Source: Synergistaceae bacterium (lineage in GTDB: Bacteria > Synergistota > Synergistia > Synergistales > Aminobacteriaceae). Taken from it: DNA of 64,000 bases. The notes beneath the pieces were generated by a model. That model ran no database searches. It worked only from the letters and a program-made list of their open reading frames with translations, and was not told the DNA's origin. The translations under genes were made by a program, and so were the position numbers. Within the stretch, counting starts at the first letter, position 1; each line of letters starts with the position of its first letter. The stretch is from NCBI GenBank assembly GCA_018436785.1, contig JAHDKR010000048.1, forward strand, positions 62,001 to 126,000. The letters run 5' to 3'. Shown here in pieces: positions 2,512-10,333 of this stretch.

Positions 2512-3705
2512 TTATCCCGCGGCAGGCACGGGAACGGATATTTCCCGTTCGTTAATTTTTTCTTCGCCGGCCCAGTCTTTGGGAGAGCGGACCGAAGTTT
2601 CCAGGATCGTGATCTTTTCCCCGTCTTCCGAAACAGATACAAACGAGAAGTTTTTTGTGACGGAAGCCTCTTTCAAAGGTATCGTTTCCTCCACGGCCGA
2701 ATCATACAGGATAACGGACAGTTGCAGACCGTAGGAAAGGCCGGGAAACGCACCCCCCTCGCGAATACCGTCGATCCTGGTAAAGACGATGCGCATTCCG
2801 TCGTCCAGCCACGCGATTTCTTCGCGCAGGCCGCTGAACTCGGCTTGTTTCTCCATGCCCTCCGCGTACACGTCGAAGAACATGTCGGGTCTTGCTCCGC
2901 TTCCCCGGACGAGGATCAGGCGATCGCCCGCAGGGCTCCAAAGAAGATCCTGGTATTCGTTTTCGTTGTCCAGAGGGATGAAGGTCATAAATTCTCCTTC
3001 GGATCCGAAAAACCAGACGCCCGTTTCTTTTTCCGTTACTGCGTCGGATGTTCCCGTCCCGATTACGGCCCAGTTCGCGATCCCGTTGTCCAGTCCGGAT
3101 GGAATATCGTACACTTCGCAGTCAAGAGGCGTTCCGTCTTTCTGCACGCGGCCGTTTACGAGAGCAAAAGCGTCTGTCCGGAGTTCCTTGCCGCCGGCAT
3201 CCTCCGGTGCGATCATCAACGTTTCCTCCAGGCACGCGACTATGGGGGCGAAACGTTCCCGCTCTTCAACGGGGTAGACGAGGATGAACGAAGCCCAGTT
3301 GTTCGCATTGATACTTCCGTATTCGTGGAAGAGGCGTTCGTTCCCGTCCTTCCCGCCGTCGTCGCTGTAGATCACTCTGTACCAGTCGGGACCGCTTTCT
3401 TCGGAGCCGGGCACGATATGCGCCACGTTTTCGAGTCTGCTCCGCAGCCTGCGTTCTCCGTCTTCTTCAAGGACGTTGTAGCCTCCCGAGAGCGTCAGCG
3501 CGTACTTCCCTTCCGAAGCGCTCAGCCAGACGCCGTCTCCGTTTTCCGGCTCATCTCTTTCCGTGTAGATATCGGCGTATTCCACAGAGTAGCCGAAGCG
3601 CTCGTTGACGTAGGTTGTCCACTGTTCCTCGGTTGCAAAAGCGGGGAGCGTGCACGTCAAAACAAAGAGCAGCGCCGAAGCGCATAACAAGGGTGTTTTT
3701 TTCAA
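2512..3705 (-). CDS. Exported protein of unknown function, propeller-like C-terminal half
   Basis: 397 residues with a clear signal peptide (about 24 residues, ending LPAFA). The first half opens with an FGYSVEY segment seen in many exported proteins of unknown function. The second half, from about residue 170, is paralogous to the C-terminal half of the protein at 4459-5727: both carry GVWFF, then F(I/L)PL, then SP(A/D)G, an RxD plus TRID region, KEA(S/T), and end in PAAG. The SPxG and DxG spacing resembles TolB/WD40-like beta-propeller blades, but no named family can be assigned. It is one of four exported proteins lying between two MalT-type regulators on the same strand. No catalytic motif is visible. 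Confidence 0.85.
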   Translation of the reverse strand: MKKTPLLCASALLFVLTCTLPAFATEEQWTTYVNERFGYSVEYADIYTERDEPENGDGVWLSASEGKYALTLSGGYNVLEEDGERRLRSRLENVAHIVPGSEESGPDWYRVIYSDDGGKDGNERLFHEYGSINANNWASFILVYPVEERERFAPIVACLEETLMIAPEDAGGKELRTDAFALVNGRVQKDGTPLDCEVYDIPSGLDNGIANWAVIGTGTSDAVTEKETGVWFFGSEGEFMTFIPLDNENEYQDLLWSPAGDRLILVRGSGARPDMFFDVYAEGMEKQAEFSGLREEIAWLDDGMRIVFTRIDGIREGGAFPGLSYGLQLSVILYDSAVEETIPLKEASVTKNFSFVSVSEDGEKITILETSVRSPKDWAGEEKINEREISVPVPAAG

Positions 3706-3816: not shown

Positions 3817-4365
3817 CTACCTATGGCTTCGAACCTGAAAATCGAGACTCCATTTGTCGAACTTGAAATTGAATTTTTTGAACGCCGCTTCGTTGGTCGT
3901 CTTCCAGCTGCCGTCATACGGCTTGATAAGTTTATTGAGAGGTATCGTATGTTCGTATTTATACACCTGTCCGGGGTACCATTCGCCTTTGTAGGGATTC
4001 GTCCCGGTCATGCCGAACTTTACGTTCCAGTGTGCCGGTTTCCATGTTGTAGAATTCTTGCCGTCAAAAAAATACTGCGTAGTACTCGTCATTTGCACGA
4101 TCGTGAAAACACCGTTCCAGCGAATTTTTCGATCAAAAATCGCCGTGATGATGTCGCCGTTTTTGCTGTTGTTGATGATGTCGAATTTGTGCACCAGAAG
4201 CAGGTGATTCCCGTCGCCGACTTTCGTGTTTTTTTGCTTCCGCAGTTGCGTTCCCGTGTACTTGACCGTCACCCAGTCGGGTTTTGCCAGAGCGGCGGAA
4301 GAGAATGCCAGCATCAGCAGCACCGCGATGCCCGCAAACAGTCCGAGCCTGTTCTTCTCTCTCAT
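3817..4365 (-). CDS. Small exported protein of unknown function
   Basis: 182 residues with a strong signal peptide (MREKNRLGLFAGIAVLLMLA..., cleavage probably after ALA at about residue 27). The mature part is basic and rich in aromatic residues and Lys/Asn, with no cysteine, which suggests a secreted beta-sheet domain. It lies between two larger exported proteins, separated from the upstream one (4459-5727) by an intrinsic terminator at 4393-4432, so it probably has its own promoter or depends on read-through. Not recognised as a known family. It shows no similarity by eye to its neighbours. Confidence 0.8.
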   Translation of the reverse strand: MREKNRLGLFAGIAVLLMLAFSSAALAKPDWVTVKYTGTQLRKQKNTKVGDGNHLLLVHKFDIINNSKNGDIITAIFDRKIRWNGVFTIVQMTSTTQYFFDGKNSTTWKPAHWNVKFGMTGTNPYKGEWYPGQVYKYEHTIPLNKLIKPYDGSWKTTNEAAFKKFNFKFDKWSLDFQVRSHR

Positions 4366-4392: not shown

Positions 4393-4432
4393 CGTATTTG
4401 CTGCGGGAAACTCCTCTCCCGCAGCAAATACG
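4393..4432 (-). terminator. Intrinsic terminator after exported-protein gene
   Basis: Perfect 16-bp arms 4393-4408 and 4417-4432 with an 8-nt loop, followed on the minus strand by ATTTTTTATAAAA. It sits just after the stop of the gene at 4459-5727. Confidence 0.85.
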
Positions 4433-4458: not shown

Positions 4459-5727
4459 TTACCCTGCCGCGGGAATCTCTACTTTTATTTCCCGCGTTGT
4501 GATTTTTTCCTCGTCGCCCCAATCCTTTTCCGACTTCACGGAGTCTTCCTGAATGACAAACGAGCCGCCGTCGTCCGATAATCCGCCGTACCAGTAGTTC
4601 TTCATCGTAGTCGCTTCTTTCAGAACGACCAGCTCCTCCGCTACGGTGTCGTACATCACCGCCGAGAGGCGAAGAGCGGCCATTGAAAAAGTCCCGTTTT
4701 CCGTCTCGCGAACGTCGTCGATCCGGGTCATCGCAAAACGGCCCACGTCAATCCACGAAGCGGATTCCCTCGTCCCCGGGATTTCAATTTTTTGCTCCAT
4801 TGTTTCCAACTCGTACAGAATGTACGTCATGTCGGCCCGAACTCCGCTTCCGCTCATCAGGAGGAAATAACTCCCGTCCGGGCTGAAAATGATGTCTTGG
4901 CATTCGCCGGCGCTCTCGAGCGGCAGGAACGTCAGAAAGGCCCCGTCTTCCGAAAAGAACCAGACGCCGGTTTCGTTTTCTGCTGCGGGGCTCGCTTCTT
5001 CCGCCCCGACGACGCTCCAAAAACGCGCCGTGCCTTCAATTTCCGGAGGTACATCGTGCACTTCCGCTTCAATAATTTCTTCGCCCTTATACACGCGTTC
5101 ATCCTTCAGTGAAAATGCGTGAACGTCAGTCGCAGCGGCTTCCACCCCTTCCTGCTCGACGAGAGCGAGGTTCGCGAGGATTTTCTCCGCATCGCTTTTT
5201 TTGAAAGTCCTGTTCGTTGTCTCCCATGTTACTTCAGCCATAAAAAGAAACGGGTCGGTCTCTATGAACAGGACCATGTGGGAGAGTCCCATATCTGATT
5301 CCGCGTATCTCACGACCTGGCAGGGGTAGGAGAAACTTGCGCTGATTATTTCCGGGGCTTTCGTGAATGTCATTTTTTTCGCGTCGGAGCTTTCCCAGAA
5401 ATCCTCAGAGCCGATAAATTCGCGAAGAACACTTTTGTCGAGGTTCTGAAGTTTTTTCTCCGCGTCTACCGAAGCCGAAAACCGCCCCACTGCGAGCGTT
5501 ACGGCAGGGCCGTCGCCCCCCTCGCCCCAACTGTAGACGAACCATGGTTTTTCATCGTCGCCGTCCGAATAGTCTTCGATCGACGCGTCTTCGGGCAGCC
5601 CGTTCGCTTGTATCCATAGCCCTTTCACCCATGCATCCGGTGCATCGCCGGCGCTCGCGGCGTTCGCGAAGCAAAAGGGCGCGCCAAAAACACAGAAAAG
5701 CGAAATGTACAGTATTACCTTTTTCAT
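4459..5727 (-). CDS. Exported two-module protein of unknown function (GLW module plus propeller-like domain)
   Basis: 422 residues with a signal peptide (cleavage near residue 22-26, ANAASAG). Mature residues about 32-190 form a module opening with KGLWIQANGLPE and containing FSYPCQVVRY. The same module occurs twice in the protein at 5842-7608 (KGLWLEIPGLPE and EGLWLRIPDFPDD, each with a SYP plus A-Y segment). Residues about 200-422 match the C-terminal half of the protein at 2512-3705. The protein is therefore a mosaic that links its two neighbours, evidence that the cluster evolved by module shuffling. No enzymatic motif is seen. It is expected outside the cytoplasmic membrane. Confidence 0.85.
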   Translation of the reverse strand: MKKVILYISLFCVFGAPFCFANAASAGDAPDAWVKGLWIQANGLPEDASIEDYSDGDDEKPWFVYSWGEGGDGPAVTLAVGRFSASVDAEKKLQNLDKSVLREFIGSEDFWESSDAKKMTFTKAPEIISASFSYPCQVVRYAESDMGLSHMVLFIETDPFLFMAEVTWETTNRTFKKSDAEKILANLALVEQEGVEAAATDVHAFSLKDERVYKGEEIIEAEVHDVPPEIEGTARFWSVVGAEEASPAAENETGVWFFSEDGAFLTFLPLESAGECQDIIFSPDGSYFLLMSGSGVRADMTYILYELETMEQKIEIPGTRESASWIDVGRFAMTRIDDVRETENGTFSMAALRLSAVMYDTVAEELVVLKEATTMKNYWYGGLSDDGGSFVIQEDSVKSEKDWGDEEKITTREIKVEIPAAG

Positions 5728-5841: not shown

Positions 5842-7608
5842 CTATTGGTTAAAAGTTTCCGGGTTGACGTTGAGGATTATGCACGCCGCATCCCACACGC
5901 TCAAATCCTTTCGCCAGTCGTAGAAATTGTTCATCGCCTGCGCGAAAATGTCCGCTTCCCAGTCGTCCGTGGCGACTCCCATATCGCTGAAAATTTTTAT
6001 CAGTTCTCCGCCCAGCTCGACACGCTCCGCGTCCGTCGTCGTTCCGTACCAGTGCATCTCACCCGCTTTTTTGAAACGCTCCACTCTCTCCGCATGGACT
6101 TCGAGGGCTTTCTCCGCGGTCGCTGTGTCTAGATCGATCTCCTCGAAGAGCCCCTCGTTTTCCGCCTGAACCATACACCATTCAAAGGCAAGGTCAAAGT
6201 CCGGTTTCTCTATTCGCTCGACTTCGAGGGACGACGCCCAGCGGCTCCGCTCGCCGAGGTCTCCTTCGTTCTCCTCGAATTCCGCGGTCTCGCCGCCGAA
6301 TTGAGAGTGTTCGTAGAGTGTCACCCTGTACCCCGGACATACGGCTACGGAACACACGCTGTCGTTGGGAATGTCGAAGCCGTTGCCCAAGTCGTATTTG
6401 CCCGGCGCGGGGATGTGCCACGCAATGCCCCGAAACTCCGGAAGCGAATAGACGACGGCGACGAAATCCAGCGTTTTCTCGTCGTCCTCCCCGGTTTTGT
6501 CGTCGAACACATCGCCTTTGCCTTCTTCGCCGTCGACGAGCTTCATGTGTGTGAACCACTCTTCGCTCCTGTCGGAGTACTCGCCGAACGTGTCCGCCGC
6601 GCCCGCGGCTTGGATGAGGAAAACGTAATCGTCGGCGAATACGCCGAGTATCGCGACCCTTTTGGCGTCCTCGTCTTCACCGATTTTATATTCCGCCGTC
6701 ATACACGGGTACGAGAGCAGTTCGGAGAAGTCGTTCGCCCCCGCGTCGAACTCGATGTCGTCAGCGTCGCCGCCGCTGTCCTTCACGCTCTCCACAATCG
6801 ATTCCTTTACTTTTTCGGGCGTTGTTTCGTCACAGGCGGGCGTCCTGTAGATGCCGAGCACGAGTGCGCCGTCATCAAGAGCGCGAATGTAGGTGACTTC
6901 ACCGTCGTCGTCCGCGGTAAACTCTAGAACTTCCGCGTCGTCCGGAAAGTCCGGAATCCGAAGCCACAGCCCTTCGACACCCGCGTCTGCTCTCGTGGCA
7001 TGCCTGTCTTGGGATTCGTCTTCGCTTCCGTTTGCCCGGGATGGATCTCGATCAAAGATTTTCATGTCCTCGAACCAGTCTTTCATTTCATCCGCGTCGT
7101 AGTCATCCATGTGATCGGCTGCGAGCGAGAGATGCACGCGGAAGATCCACTCGTCGGTGAAGATGAAAATGTCCTGGTTCCCTCTCATGTCCTCGTCTTC
7201 GCCGGTCGTATACAGCGCTGTCGCGACCGGGTACGAGTAAATCTCTTCGAGTTCCTCGACGGATTCGGTGATTTCGACGTCGTTCGGGTCGATTTCGATG
7301 TCCTTGCGGAGACTTTGCAGTCTGACGACCAATTTACCGGTATCGCCGGGACCTAAGGCTTCGCCGTTTCTGTCCGCCGAGTAAATCCTTTCGATCGATA
7401 CTTTCAGTATGCCGCCGTCGAAATCCCGCTCGAAGTACGCCTCGCCCTCGCCGTCCGACTGGATATTGAATGTTGTGGAACTTGCCTCCGGGAGACCCGG
7501 AATCTCGAGCCACAACCCCTTCACCTTGCCGTCGCCGGCTTGTACAGGAGCCGCGAACAGCGCGAACGCCAGAGCAAAGACAAAAAATGTACCAATACGC
7601 TTCCTCAT
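5842..7608 (-). CDS. Exported protein with two GLW modules and a beta/gamma-crystallin domain
   Basis: The start is placed at the ATG at 7608, behind GGAGGAACAAGT. This gives 588 residues and a proper signal peptide (MRKRIGTFFVFALAFALFAA). The frame is open further upstream to 7701, but that stretch is only a basic, low-complexity extension. Two repeats of a GLW module follow (residues about 25-180 and 200-355). Residues about 380-466 match the double Greek-key beta/gamma-crystallin fold: VYSLPEFRG, GKYDLG, then NDSVCS, YRVTLYEHSQFGG, and a closing WASSLEVE. The NDSVCS segment resembles the N/D-N/D-x-S/T-S calcium-binding motif of this family. The second motif (RWASS) is degenerate. The C-terminus is helical and unassigned. 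Bacterial proteins with this fold often bind Ca2+ outside the cell. Confidence 0.85.
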   Translation of the reverse strand: MRKRIGTFFVFALAFALFAAPVQAGDGKVKGLWLEIPGLPEASSTTFNIQSDGEGEAYFERDFDGGILKVSIERIYSADRNGEALGPGDTGKLVVRLQSLRKDIEIDPNDVEITESVEELEEIYSYPVATALYTTGEDEDMRGNQDIFIFTDEWIFRVHLSLAADHMDDYDADEMKDWFEDMKIFDRDPSRANGSEDESQDRHATRADAGVEGLWLRIPDFPDDAEVLEFTADDDGEVTYIRALDDGALVLGIYRTPACDETTPEKVKESIVESVKDSGGDADDIEFDAGANDFSELLSYPCMTAEYKIGEDEDAKRVAILGVFADDYVFLIQAAGAADTFGEYSDRSEEWFTHMKLVDGEEGKGDVFDDKTGEDDEKTLDFVAVVYSLPEFRGIAWHIPAPGKYDLGNGFDIPNDSVCSVAVCPGYRVTLYEHSQFGGETAEFEENEGDLGERSRWASSLEVERIEKPDFDLAFEWCMVQAENEGLFEEIDLDTATAEKALEVHAERVERFKKAGEMHWYGTTTDAERVELGGELIKIFSDMGVATDDWEADIFAQAMNNFYDWRKDLSVWDAACIILNVNPETFNQ

Positions 7609-7767
7609 ACTTGTTCCTCCATTCCTCTCGATATGTCCGTCCTTGAGCCGGAAGGCGTCGATATTCAGTCGACGGCGTCTTTTCTTCCGTCTCTTTCGCA
7701 AATAACGGCATCAAGGGGCGACAGAGCGCCTCTTCCAAGGAGACGATACACTGCTTTCAAGGTTTGT

Positions 7768-7843: not shown

Positions 7844-10333
7844 TCAAAAGGAAGTTACTGTCAATTCGACGCGGGAATGCACTCCCAGCTTTCCATAGAC
7901 GGCCTTTGTTATGCTCTTCACCGTATTTTCGGTTACGAAGAGGTTTTTCGAGATCTCCTTGACTGAAAGGCCGTCTTTCAGAAGAAGCGCTACCTCGCGC
8001 TGCCTGGCGCTGAGAATGGATCCCGACCCAGAGAGAGTTTTGCGGACCGTTTCCGCGCCCGATGCCTGACGTGCGCACAGCGAACGCACAGCGCGTACCC
8101 GGTCTTCGGGAAAAGCGTTTTGAAGCGAATCGAACAGCGGCGTCAACGAGTCTCCGTGTTCTGCGAAAGGCAGGTAGACTTCATCCGGCAGCGCCAGTAG
8201 GAGCGCCTGTTCAAGATACCCGACGGCCTCTTCCCGGCAGGCTTCAGCGTTCTTCGCGACGGCGAGATAGATGTTGTAATAGACTTGCGGGAGCATGTAG
8301 TGCATCCTGCGGGCGAATTCCAGGACCGGTTCCGCGATGCCGTAGAGTTCTGAATAGCGCTCTTCCTGAAGCAGCGCCATTCCGTGAAGCATCATCGCAT
8401 ACGGCTGACCGTCGGTGTACACCACTTTCCGGATGCTCTCGGCGTCGCGGAGCCAGGGAGGCAGATCGTCGAGGCGTCCGAGCGCCAGGTCGGTAACGGC
8501 CAGGCAGAGGTCCCCGATGCGCAGGAGCGACGTCTGCTGCGCTTCCCGGGCGTCCTTCAGAATGCTGCGACGTATGGAGGTGTACGAATCGCCGTCGCCG
8601 CGCAGCAGCATGATACGGGCCAGCACCAGCGATGCGCAGAGACAGTTGCCGATCTGCCCCGCGCTGCGCGCTTCAAAAAGCGCGGTATGGCACATGACCT
8701 CCGCTTCGACGTCGTCTCCGCGGAAGAGCGCGGCCTCCGCGCGCAGGACATACTCTGCGCCGGCGCCGTGCCCTCCGGCGAGGGTGACGTAATACGGCAG
8801 GCATTCGTCCATCACCGAGAGTGTTTTTTTCAGGGCGCCGCTCTCTCTCCAGTAGAGGAAGAGCACCGACGCTCCGCTCATCGTCCACGGCATGGCCCCA
8901 CCGAAAATAACCGACCGCGGAGGGTCCGACAGTTGACGCAGGGAGTCGTATGCCCGCCTGTGGTATTCGCTCATCTTGGCGATATCGTTGAACTGGGGAA
9001 AGGACATCAGGATGGAAAACTCCCCCCTGATCCGCAGCAGCTCCTTCTCGGAGAGGCCGGAAGGAGCGTCGAGGAGTTTCTGCACCAGCGCCGTCGTTTT
9101 TGAAAATGGGAGCATTCTTCTGTCCCTGAAAAACTGCTGGCCGAACGTCACAAGAGCCAGCGGGTGTTTCAACAGCGTTTCCTCCGGGCACTCGTCGATA
9201 AGGCGCTCGAAGAGATCGATGACGCTTCGCTCCCTGAAATTGTAAAAATACTGCGTTGTGAACGGCATCGAGAGGATCGCCTCGTAGTTCCCGGTCTCGA
9301 TGTGGAACTGCGTCGCGTGAAAGTACTCGCCGACCGTCTCGCAGGCGCGCCCCGCCCTGCGGTACGTCTCCCGCCGGAACGTCTCGCCCGTTTGTTCGAA
9401 CCTGTCCCTCAGATAGTCCTGAAGGAGGCTGTGCATATAGTACACGCCCTCGTCCGGAACGAAGGGAACGAAGGCGTTCCGTCGCAGGATTTCATCGATA
9501 TTGACATCGTTGGAAACGCCTTCGAGCATGATCGACGCCTGGCGCGGGGAAAAACATTCGAACAGCGAGACGGAAAGCAAAAAACGTTTTTCCTCTTCCG
9601 AGAGGCGGTTCCATATCGAGGTCTCGATGAGGTCGTTCATGGTGTTTGCCGGAGCAAGAGCTCCCGTCGCCTTGTAGTGGAGCATCTGAAGTTTGAGCGC
9701 TGCGATCCATCCGCCAGTGGCGGCGCACACCGTCTCCAGCTCTTGAGACGAGAGCGTAAGGCCCGCCAGCGCGAAGTAACGCTGCACGCTCCGTTTGTCG
9801 AAAGAAAAATCGACCGGGCCGATGTTGTGAATGTCCGGTGCGCGCCAGGTCGTGTTCGCGGAGAGCTTCTGCGTGATGAAGACGATGTGGAGCGCGTCGT
9901 TGCGGTGCAGGGAAAAAGCGTTGATGATGTCGGACTGCACTTCGCTTTTTACGAGCTGATAATTGTCGATGATTACAAAAGAGTCGCGGTCGCAGGAACA
10001 CTCGCGCATGATCGCGGCCACATCCGCCATTGTTTCCCTGTTCGGCGTGTCGAGGCTTCGAAGGTTCCGGGATACTCTCGGGTCGACGTCGTCGAAGAGA
10101 TCGCAGATAGTGCCCCAGGCTTTCGAGGATGGTTCCCCGAGACTCGTGTACCAGAACGCGCGCGAAGAGGATGGGATGTGCGCGCGCAGGTATTCGCGAA
10201 ACGAGGTCGTCTTGCCGAATCCGGAAGGCGCTTCGATGAGCGTCAGCGGATAGTCCTTGACGCGGGAGACTTTCGACAAAATCCGTTCCGGAAAGTAGAC
10301 GATATCTTCAGCGTGGACGCTTTTTCGGGGCAT
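7844..10333 (-). CDS. MalT/LuxR-type ATP-dependent transcriptional regulator
   Basis: 829 residues, the usual length for MalT-like regulators. The ATG follows AGGAGAGAG. The N-terminal P-loop is EAPSGFGKTT (about residue 35-44) and a Walker-B-like VIIDNYQL lies near residue 120. The middle is a long alpha-helical, TPR-like region with many Leu/Ala/Arg repeats. The C-terminus is a GerE/LuxR helix-turn-helix (LSARQREVALLLKDG, then VTENTVKSI). In this family an inducer plus ATP drives oligomerisation and activation. It is followed on the same strand by four exported proteins and a second paralogous regulator (1-2332), which suggests these regulators control the exported proteins. That link is an inference from position only. 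Confidence 0.92.
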   Translation of the reverse strand: MPRKSVHAEDIVYFPERILSKVSRVKDYPLTLIEAPSGFGKTTSFREYLRAHIPSSSRAFWYTSLGEPSSKAWGTICDLFDDVDPRVSRNLRSLDTPNRETMADVAAIMRECSCDRDSFVIIDNYQLVKSEVQSDIINAFSLHRNDALHIVFITQKLSANTTWRAPDIHNIGPVDFSFDKRSVQRYFALAGLTLSSQELETVCAATGGWIAALKLQMLHYKATGALAPANTMNDLIETSIWNRLSEEEKRFLLSVSLFECFSPRQASIMLEGVSNDVNIDEILRRNAFVPFVPDEGVYYMHSLLQDYLRDRFEQTGETFRRETYRRAGRACETVGEYFHATQFHIETGNYEAILSMPFTTQYFYNFRERSVIDLFERLIDECPEETLLKHPLALVTFGQQFFRDRRMLPFSKTTALVQKLLDAPSGLSEKELLRIRGEFSILMSFPQFNDIAKMSEYHRRAYDSLRQLSDPPRSVIFGGAMPWTMSGASVLFLYWRESGALKKTLSVMDECLPYYVTLAGGHGAGAEYVLRAEAALFRGDDVEAEVMCHTALFEARSAGQIGNCLCASLVLARIMLLRGDGDSYTSIRRSILKDAREAQQTSLLRIGDLCLAVTDLALGRLDDLPPWLRDAESIRKVVYTDGQPYAMMLHGMALLQEERYSELYGIAEPVLEFARRMHYMLPQVYYNIYLAVAKNAEACREEAVGYLEQALLLALPDEVYLPFAEHGDSLTPLFDSLQNAFPEDRVRAVRSLCARQASGAETVRKTLSGSGSILSARQREVALLLKDGLSVKEISKNLFVTENTVKSITKAVYGKLGVHSRVELTVTSF

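Follow-up and report, generated by a model that had tools for sequence, protein, structure and literature searches.

An exported Synergistaceae protein that joins a β/γ-crystallin domain to predicted Mog1/PsbP-like modules beside a MalT-type regulator

The stretch of 64,000 nucleotides analyzed here (the window) encodes an exported, modular protein in which two related modules, termed GLW1 and GLW2, precede a β/γ-crystallin domain and a conserved helical domain. Our preferred reading, to which we give a little less than an even chance, is that of a modular envelope scaffold braced by one Ca2+, acting within a ligand-switched set of proteins for envelope protection. The GLW modules would bind protein partners in the envelope, the crystallin domain would hold a single Ca2+ at the site formed by the N-D of motif 1 and the Ser of motif 2, with the other site abandoned, and the conserved C-terminal domain would have a binding role. 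A MalT-type regulator would sense a small ligand and switch on the set, which shares its locus with an A2M/PBP1C pair in this genus. The features are listed in Table 1; genomes are designated by G numbers, contigs by C numbers, and families by f numbers.

Table 1. Features of the crystallin gene and its neighbors, in window coordinates
Feature	Position	Strand	Basis
MalT-type LuxR regulator A (AAA, TPR_MalT, GerE), directly upstream of the crystallin gene	7844..10333	-	Pfam, NCBI MalT model
Shine-Dalgarno sequence GGAGG, 7 nt before the ATG at 7608	7616..7620	-	read directly from sequence
588-aa exported-protein gene (signal peptide, GLW1, GLW2, β/γ-crystallin, helical C-terminal domain)	5842..7608	-	translation; 86%-identical full-length relative
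Sec signal peptide, residues 1-24 (MRKRIGTFFVFALAFALFAAPVQA)	7537..7608	-	by eye
GLW1 module, residues 25-190	7039..7536	-	alignment and phylum search; own model of low confidence
GLW2 module, residues 205-360, predicted Mog1/PsbP-like fold	6529..6996	-	AF2 model; Foldseek and VIA matches
β/γ-Crystallin domain, residues 382-467, paired Greek keys	6208..6465	-	phmmer; AF2; Foldseek; VIA
Ca2+ half-motif 1, residues 415-420, NDSVCS (Cys at position 5)	6349..6366	-	sequence, motif table
Ca2+ half-motif 2, residues 455-460, SRWASS (N/D missing at positions 1-2)	6229..6246	-	sequence, motif table
Helical C-terminal domain, residues 469-588, conserved run NNFYDWRKDLSVWDxAC	5845..6204	-	alignments; phylum search; model
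Gene following the crystallin gene, with a GLW module, a propeller-like C-terminal domain, and a signal peptide (by eye)	4459..5727	-	Pfam scan, alignment
Hairpin resembling an intrinsic terminator (18-bp stem and T run) that follows the two-gene unit	4393..4432	-	terminator search
182-aa family W3817 (signal peptide by eye), recurring in several related clusters	3817..4365	-	neighborhood scan
W2512N domain and the same propeller-like C-terminal domain as in 4459-5727 (signal peptide by eye)	2512..3705	-	neighborhood scan

The frame is a real gene, since 586 of its residues align at 86% identity with a full-length relative from this genus; the named near relatives are Synergistaceae and Synergistales MAGs, and the whole protein had zero matches at E 1e-3 among plasmid and phage records. 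The source genome, at 82.6% completeness, is a draft comprising 228 contigs. An initial annotation of this DNA had proposed an exported protein with a crystallin domain, and this was borne out by a Sec-type signal peptide ending in VQA, followed by GD (called by eye, as were the other signal peptides unless a crude hydrophobic-run test was used), together with the phmmer match and the predicted fold described below. Without the signal peptide, the protein is strongly acidic, with a pI of 4.09.

Protein S was matched by phmmer over residues 389-464 (E 1.7e-5), and both Y/F/W-X4-Y/F-X-G signatures are present, as Y387-SLPE-F-R-G394 and Y432-EHSQ-F-G-G439. The Pfam Crystall profile scores 16 bits in this protein, below its cutoff of 25 bits, which is an operating threshold and no defining trait of the domain, and 37.6 bits in the G161 relative with the same pair of crystallin and C-terminal domains. 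The AF2 model of the whole protein, based on an alignment of 17 rows that included crystallins of other phyla, has a mean pLDDT of 64.6 and a pTM of 0.36, and its crystallin part reaches a pLDDT of 73-96 in blocks of ten residues. Foldseek superimposed 1nps, the N-domain of Protein S, on this part with an rmsd of 1.2 Å and a target TM of 0.91; VIA matched 3hzb with Z 14.5 and 1nps with Z 14.3, its best rows having an rmsd of 1.2-1.6 Å over 84-87 residues. The paired Greek keys, on which the initial domain assignment hinged, are thus present in the predicted fold; structure prediction likewise gave a matched fold for GLW2, and a model of low confidence for GLW1.

The domain therefore shares the paired Greek keys and both Y-X4-F-X-G signatures with the microbial β/γ-crystallins (Protein S N-domain, 1nps/1prr; flavollin, 3hzb; clostrillin, 3i9h). 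Unlike Protein S and the other microbial crystallins, it is a single domain whose Ca2+ half-motifs both deviate, and it is joined to further exported modules and to a new helical domain. Literature searches found no paper on a crystallin domain in Synergistetes; the combination of γ-crystallin with PsbP gave nothing related, and among the titles and abstracts of the matches listed for Synergist and γ-crystallin none concerned this phylum. Several crystallin or inhibitor-I36-like domains also make up another Synergistaceae protein, which has about 610 aa (535-2367 of locus L091, G002:C62).

Passages of two reports (PMC3551895, PMC8639718) give the consensus Ca2+ half-motif as N/D-N/D-X-X-S/T-S in both Greek keys and mention a "double clamp" and a main-chain carbonyl supplied by X1. 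In the second of them (PMC8639718), Arg at position 5 is described as stabilizing microbial crystallins and as natural in lens crystallins. One of the two motifs had been annotated as degenerate; in fact both NDSVCS and SRWASS depart from the consensus, and the canonical two-site pattern is absent. The comparison was extended to the 13 crystallin copies of the family (12 for motif 2, as G020b ends at a contig edge), with G019 and one Paenibacillus domain aligned as uncounted reference rows. Motif 1 keeps both N-D and Ser-6 in 13/13 copies, and its position 5 is S/T in two, Cys in seven, Ala in three, and Arg in one (G003); the G020 domain is among those with S/T. In motif 2, Ser-5 and Ser-6 are present in 12/12 copies, two of which have N/D at position 2. 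Taken whole, canonical motif 1 is found in 2/13 copies and motif 2 in 0/12.

We take the sites to be assembled crosswise, so that one of them consists of the N-D of motif 1 and the Ser of motif 2; the assignment of half-motifs to sites is our assumption. If so, a single Ca2+ site, not two, is likely from these alignments, because the half-motifs of one site persist among the relatives and those of the other decay. With the second site given up, the domain would be a Ca2+-braced rigid joint and not a Ca2+ switch, and the family, if this reading is right, would provide crystallin domains that form a natural series, with one Ca2+ site seemingly decaying and the other retained.

The same data bear on a different view, that of a Ca2+-responsive surface protein whose crystallin domain senses or stores Ca2+ and which coats or sticks the cell, like Protein S of Myxococcus. 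Protein S is indeed the closest solved relative by sequence and came first in Foldseek, motif 1 retains its N-D, and the whole protein is acidic; however, neither half-motif is canonical here and complete ones are as scarce as counted above, a single crystallin domain stands where Protein S has a tandem, and a surface anchor was not seen by eye. We regard such a role as unlikely. The earlier suggestion of Ca2+ binding at the cell surface thus survives in part: one site is plausible even though neither motif is canonical, and the cell surface and the periplasm fit alike.

Returning to the scaffold, the two repeats recognized upstream of the crystallin domain in the initial annotation proved to be related modules, 32% identical in the alignment, and an HMM search of 185 Synergistota genomes at E 0.001 recovered 29 such modules in 13 genomes and none in the remaining 172. 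They had been said to belong to no known family. This holds at the sequence level, since nine modules gave no relevant Pfam family, and no PsbP, Mog1, or DUF1795 at E 1 (the hmmscan filters drop weak matches), and the GLW profiles found nothing convincing among PDB sequences (best E 0.093). It does not hold for the fold, as GLW2 takes a known, Mog1/PsbP-like one in the AF2 model, where its pLDDT is about 69-87 over most of the module and 59-61 at the ends. Foldseek gives this fold a probability of 1.00, and the VIA matches include 3lyd (Z 13.7, 140 residues, 3.9 Å), PsbP 2xb3 (Z 12.2, 136 residues, 3.4 Å), 1tu1 (12.3), EagT6 (12.2), DcrB (12.2), LpqN (11.7), and human MOG1 (10.1). The model of GLW1 is poor (block pLDDT 26-64), and the same fold is assigned to it by homology to GLW2 only.

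GLW2 therefore resembles the Mog1/PsbP-like proteins (PsbP, CyanoP, LpqN, MTC28, DcrB, EagT6/SciW, and MOG1) in predicted fold, with Z 10.1-13.7 over 117-153 residues among the matches listed, and several of these are, by their titles, exported envelope proteins. It differs from them in its sequence, which is 5-14% identical to theirs and has no Pfam match, and in its use as a shuffled repeat. PMC7716261 describes these proteins as functionally diverse and, in bacteria, as possibly tied to membrane-anchored complexes, which is why GLW modules may bind partners in the envelope.

In an unrooted tree of all 29 GLW modules, the grouping is mostly by position in the protein. The GLW1 modules (7 rows, support 100/99) and those of the propeller-like type (6 rows, 100/100) form one group each, as do, without being starred, the GLW2 modules (8 rows, 85/96) and the modules from the second half of the gene cluster (6 rows, 94/89). 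The other two rows have long branches and join none of these groups; one is the second module from the double-GLW protein of G161, which falls outside the GLW2 group. Because the modules group in this way, the tree indicates that they have been shuffled between proteins. A protein of G005 (562-2052 of locus L013), whose start resembles a signal peptide, combines a GLW module with ankyrin repeats.

The best-conserved region of the protein is the C-terminal domain, which ends NNFYDWRKDLSVWDxACxxLN and is 36% identical between f1 and f3 members. Its profile detected 15 of the 185 phylum genomes at E 0.01, in families f1, f3, f4, and f5, and none of the other 170; the 13 genomes called strong below leave out G086 and G096 (E about 0.004-0.005) and count G013, which has a 37-residue remnant only. 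Modeled alone, the domain is helical, with moderate model confidence (pLDDT 72.1, pTM 0.70). The best matches of this model to PDB folds were at E 3.4 in Foldseek and Z 3.6 in VIA, which does not show a new fold, the profile found nothing convincing among PDB sequences (best E 0.3), and a viral scan returned 129 stretches with the pattern and zero relatives. Being both the most conserved part and the one without a found match, the domain is a clear target for structural work. A contig filed under Candidatus Adiutrix sp. (JAITVE010000194.1; L028:3386-4735) contains, after an ankyrin protein, 34 aa left over from the C-terminal domain and then W2512N-like and L002N-like proteins; either the DNA was transferred from one phylum to the other, or a Synergistaceae contig was binned wrongly.

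Comparison of the relatives showed that the crystallin domain and the C-terminal domain form the stable core, and that GLW modules are added to proteins, dropped, or moved between them. The pair is preceded by GLW1 in G003 and by GLW2 in G024, G006, G020, and G071 (the last split over two contigs), and it stands alone in G045, G117, G121, G070, and G161. The G002 version stops after GLW2, without the crystallin and C-terminal parts, and therefore the set can lose its crystallin. In G020 (C234), one frame with GLW1 and another with GLW2, crystallin, and C-terminal domains, the second having its own signal peptide, lie in the same phase with one TAG between them, which closely links the double-GLW form to the two-gene form.

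On contig C130 of the source genome (G000), the minus-strand order is regulator A, the crystallin gene, the GLW-propeller gene, the hairpin, W3817, and the W2512N-propeller gene, followed by regulator B, D156, L002N-GLW, A2M, and a PBP1C-like gene. The region holds six terminator-like sites, fewer than the 11.3 in shuffled sequences, and the hairpin at 4393-4432 is exceptional by its stem length only. Neighborhood counts were obtained by scanning all frames of at least 50 or 60 aa; picking the longest frames can hide genes under antisense frames (e.g., L119). W2512N was also considered as another GLW relative, which was unsupported (hhalign probability 0.1, one profile having only two rows).

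Regulator A carries a LuxR-type helix-turn-helix (GerE, E 5.3e-14, 52 bits against a cutoff of 23.5), and its matches to AAA_22 (E 2.4e-5) and TPR_MalT (E 4.1e-6) are both under the curated cutoffs; the NCBI MalT model gives E 3.1e-28 with 98.3 of 537 bits, far under its cutoff. Regulator A thus has GerE in common with MalT-type LuxR regulators, along with the weaker matches to AAA and TPR_MalT, and differs from MalT in its coupling to exported proteins, most of which lack a Pfam family. A regulator of this kind, whole or in part, lies upstream on the same strand of 9/13 crystallin copies in three families (G000, G004, G006, G024, G020b, G045, G117, G121, and G161), counting a regulator end at a contig edge in G006, a shortened remnant in G161, and, in G020b, a crystallin cut by the contig end. 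It is absent upstream of the other four, within loci of 20 kb in G003 and G070, 22 kb in G020a, and 3.8 kb in G071.

At E 1e-20, each f3 genome (G045, G117, and G121) has one such regulator and G070, which is 82% complete, has none; the source draft has two at E 1e-10, both in this cluster. At E 1e-80, the regulator occurs in 28/185 genomes, including 12 of the 13 strong C-terminal genomes, a co-occurrence with a hypergeometric probability of 1.6e-10 when phylogeny is ignored. The idea that it is exclusive to this island was rejected, since in G139 and G171 it also precedes large, N-terminally anchored proteins. Those proteins (about 1280 aa, L112:4684-8517, and at least 1400 aa to the contig end, L113:3799-8010) have similar N-terminal hydrophobic stretches and gave no match to this set. 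If the reading is right, it links a MalT-type sensor with envelope proteins across several families within a single order.

Maltotriose is the ligand that MalT senses in E. coli. A regulator of the same type, and the crystallin-like domains found within GH29 glycosidase structures (4ni3, 9lxl; Foldseek, VIA), would suit an exported protein that binds a carbohydrate or ligand and belongs to a regulon for sugar uptake or degradation, with the crystallin as a rigid spacer only; the Pfam-scanned neighbors, however, include neither a transporter nor a glycosidase, and we hold this explanation to be very improbable.

In the second half of the cluster, the L002N-GLW gene lies directly before the A2M and PBP1C-like genes (G000:C130:51509-60507, just outside the window), and a GLW gene directly adjoins A2M in four of the five genomes of the genus examined (G000, G001, G002, and G003). 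In G020, A2M was not found within 8.8 kb after the L002N-GLW gene, and G004 yielded no such gene. G002 has the same run as G000, minus the W2512N gene and the crystallin and C-terminal parts. The A2M has bait-region and bMG domains (Pfam) and the thioester motif CLEQ, and CxEQ is given, in PMC3328433 and PMC5764988, as the mark of an A2M class that often adjoins PBP1C. Because the set adjoins a thioester A2M and a PBP1C-like protein in this genus, it probably protects or maintains the envelope. The terminator-like hairpin and the second regulator lie between the halves of the cluster, so a regulation shared with A2M is putative.

The f3 genomes G045, G117, and G121 have the regulator first, then other genes, D156, propeller, L002N, and the crystallin-C-terminal gene, and no A2M match was found in the three 20-kb loci. 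G070 has propeller, L002N, and crystallin-C-terminal genes, with A2M about 8 kb from the crystallin gene and the regulator missing.

The Mag complex of Pseudomonas provides a parallel, in which exported proteins encoded by a single operon are able to bind an A2M (PMC5764988). Likewise, a thioester A2M and a PBP1C-like gene accompany small exported proteins in the second half of the cluster, the likeness being one of gene content, and the regulator here being, in distinction to that system, of the MalT type. The crystallin protein might accordingly be a protease inhibitor or an A2M accessory, similar to the small MagD-binding Mag proteins. The crystallin fold is also found in peptidase inhibitor family I36, and two relatives with the C-terminal domain have weak, below-cutoff I36 matches, yet the I36 profile does not match the protein itself at E 1 (Pfam). 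A2M lies in the same co-directional run and near the crystallin gene of G070, but it adjoins another GLW protein, not the crystallin protein, and the f3 loci gave no match to it. Furthermore, the PBP1C-linked A2M class is not known to act with such partners. A role of this kind is thus quite unlikely for the crystallin protein.

More broadly, the scaffold may belong to an undescribed, regulator-switched envelope system of Synergistales, built from shuffled exported modules (PsbP-like GLW, the one-Ca2+ crystallin joint, the helical "NNFYDWRKDLS" domain, and the propeller-like and "SNFTELGF" domains) and wired in one genus to the A2M/PBP1C protease-trap-and-repair pair, the modular proteins being accessory or targeting subunits. 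We put this forward as a speculative and rather improbable proposal; if right, it would open a first way into a group of exported proteins from a little-studied phylum, most scanned members of which have no Pfam family.

The L002N "SNFTELGF" domain occurs in 70/185 Synergistota genomes, often in several copies, and the members scanned gave only a weak TerB match (Pfam). The propeller-like domain (2512-3705, 4459-5727, and relatives) ends in a near-identical tail, PIPAAG or IPAAG, across several families of the order.
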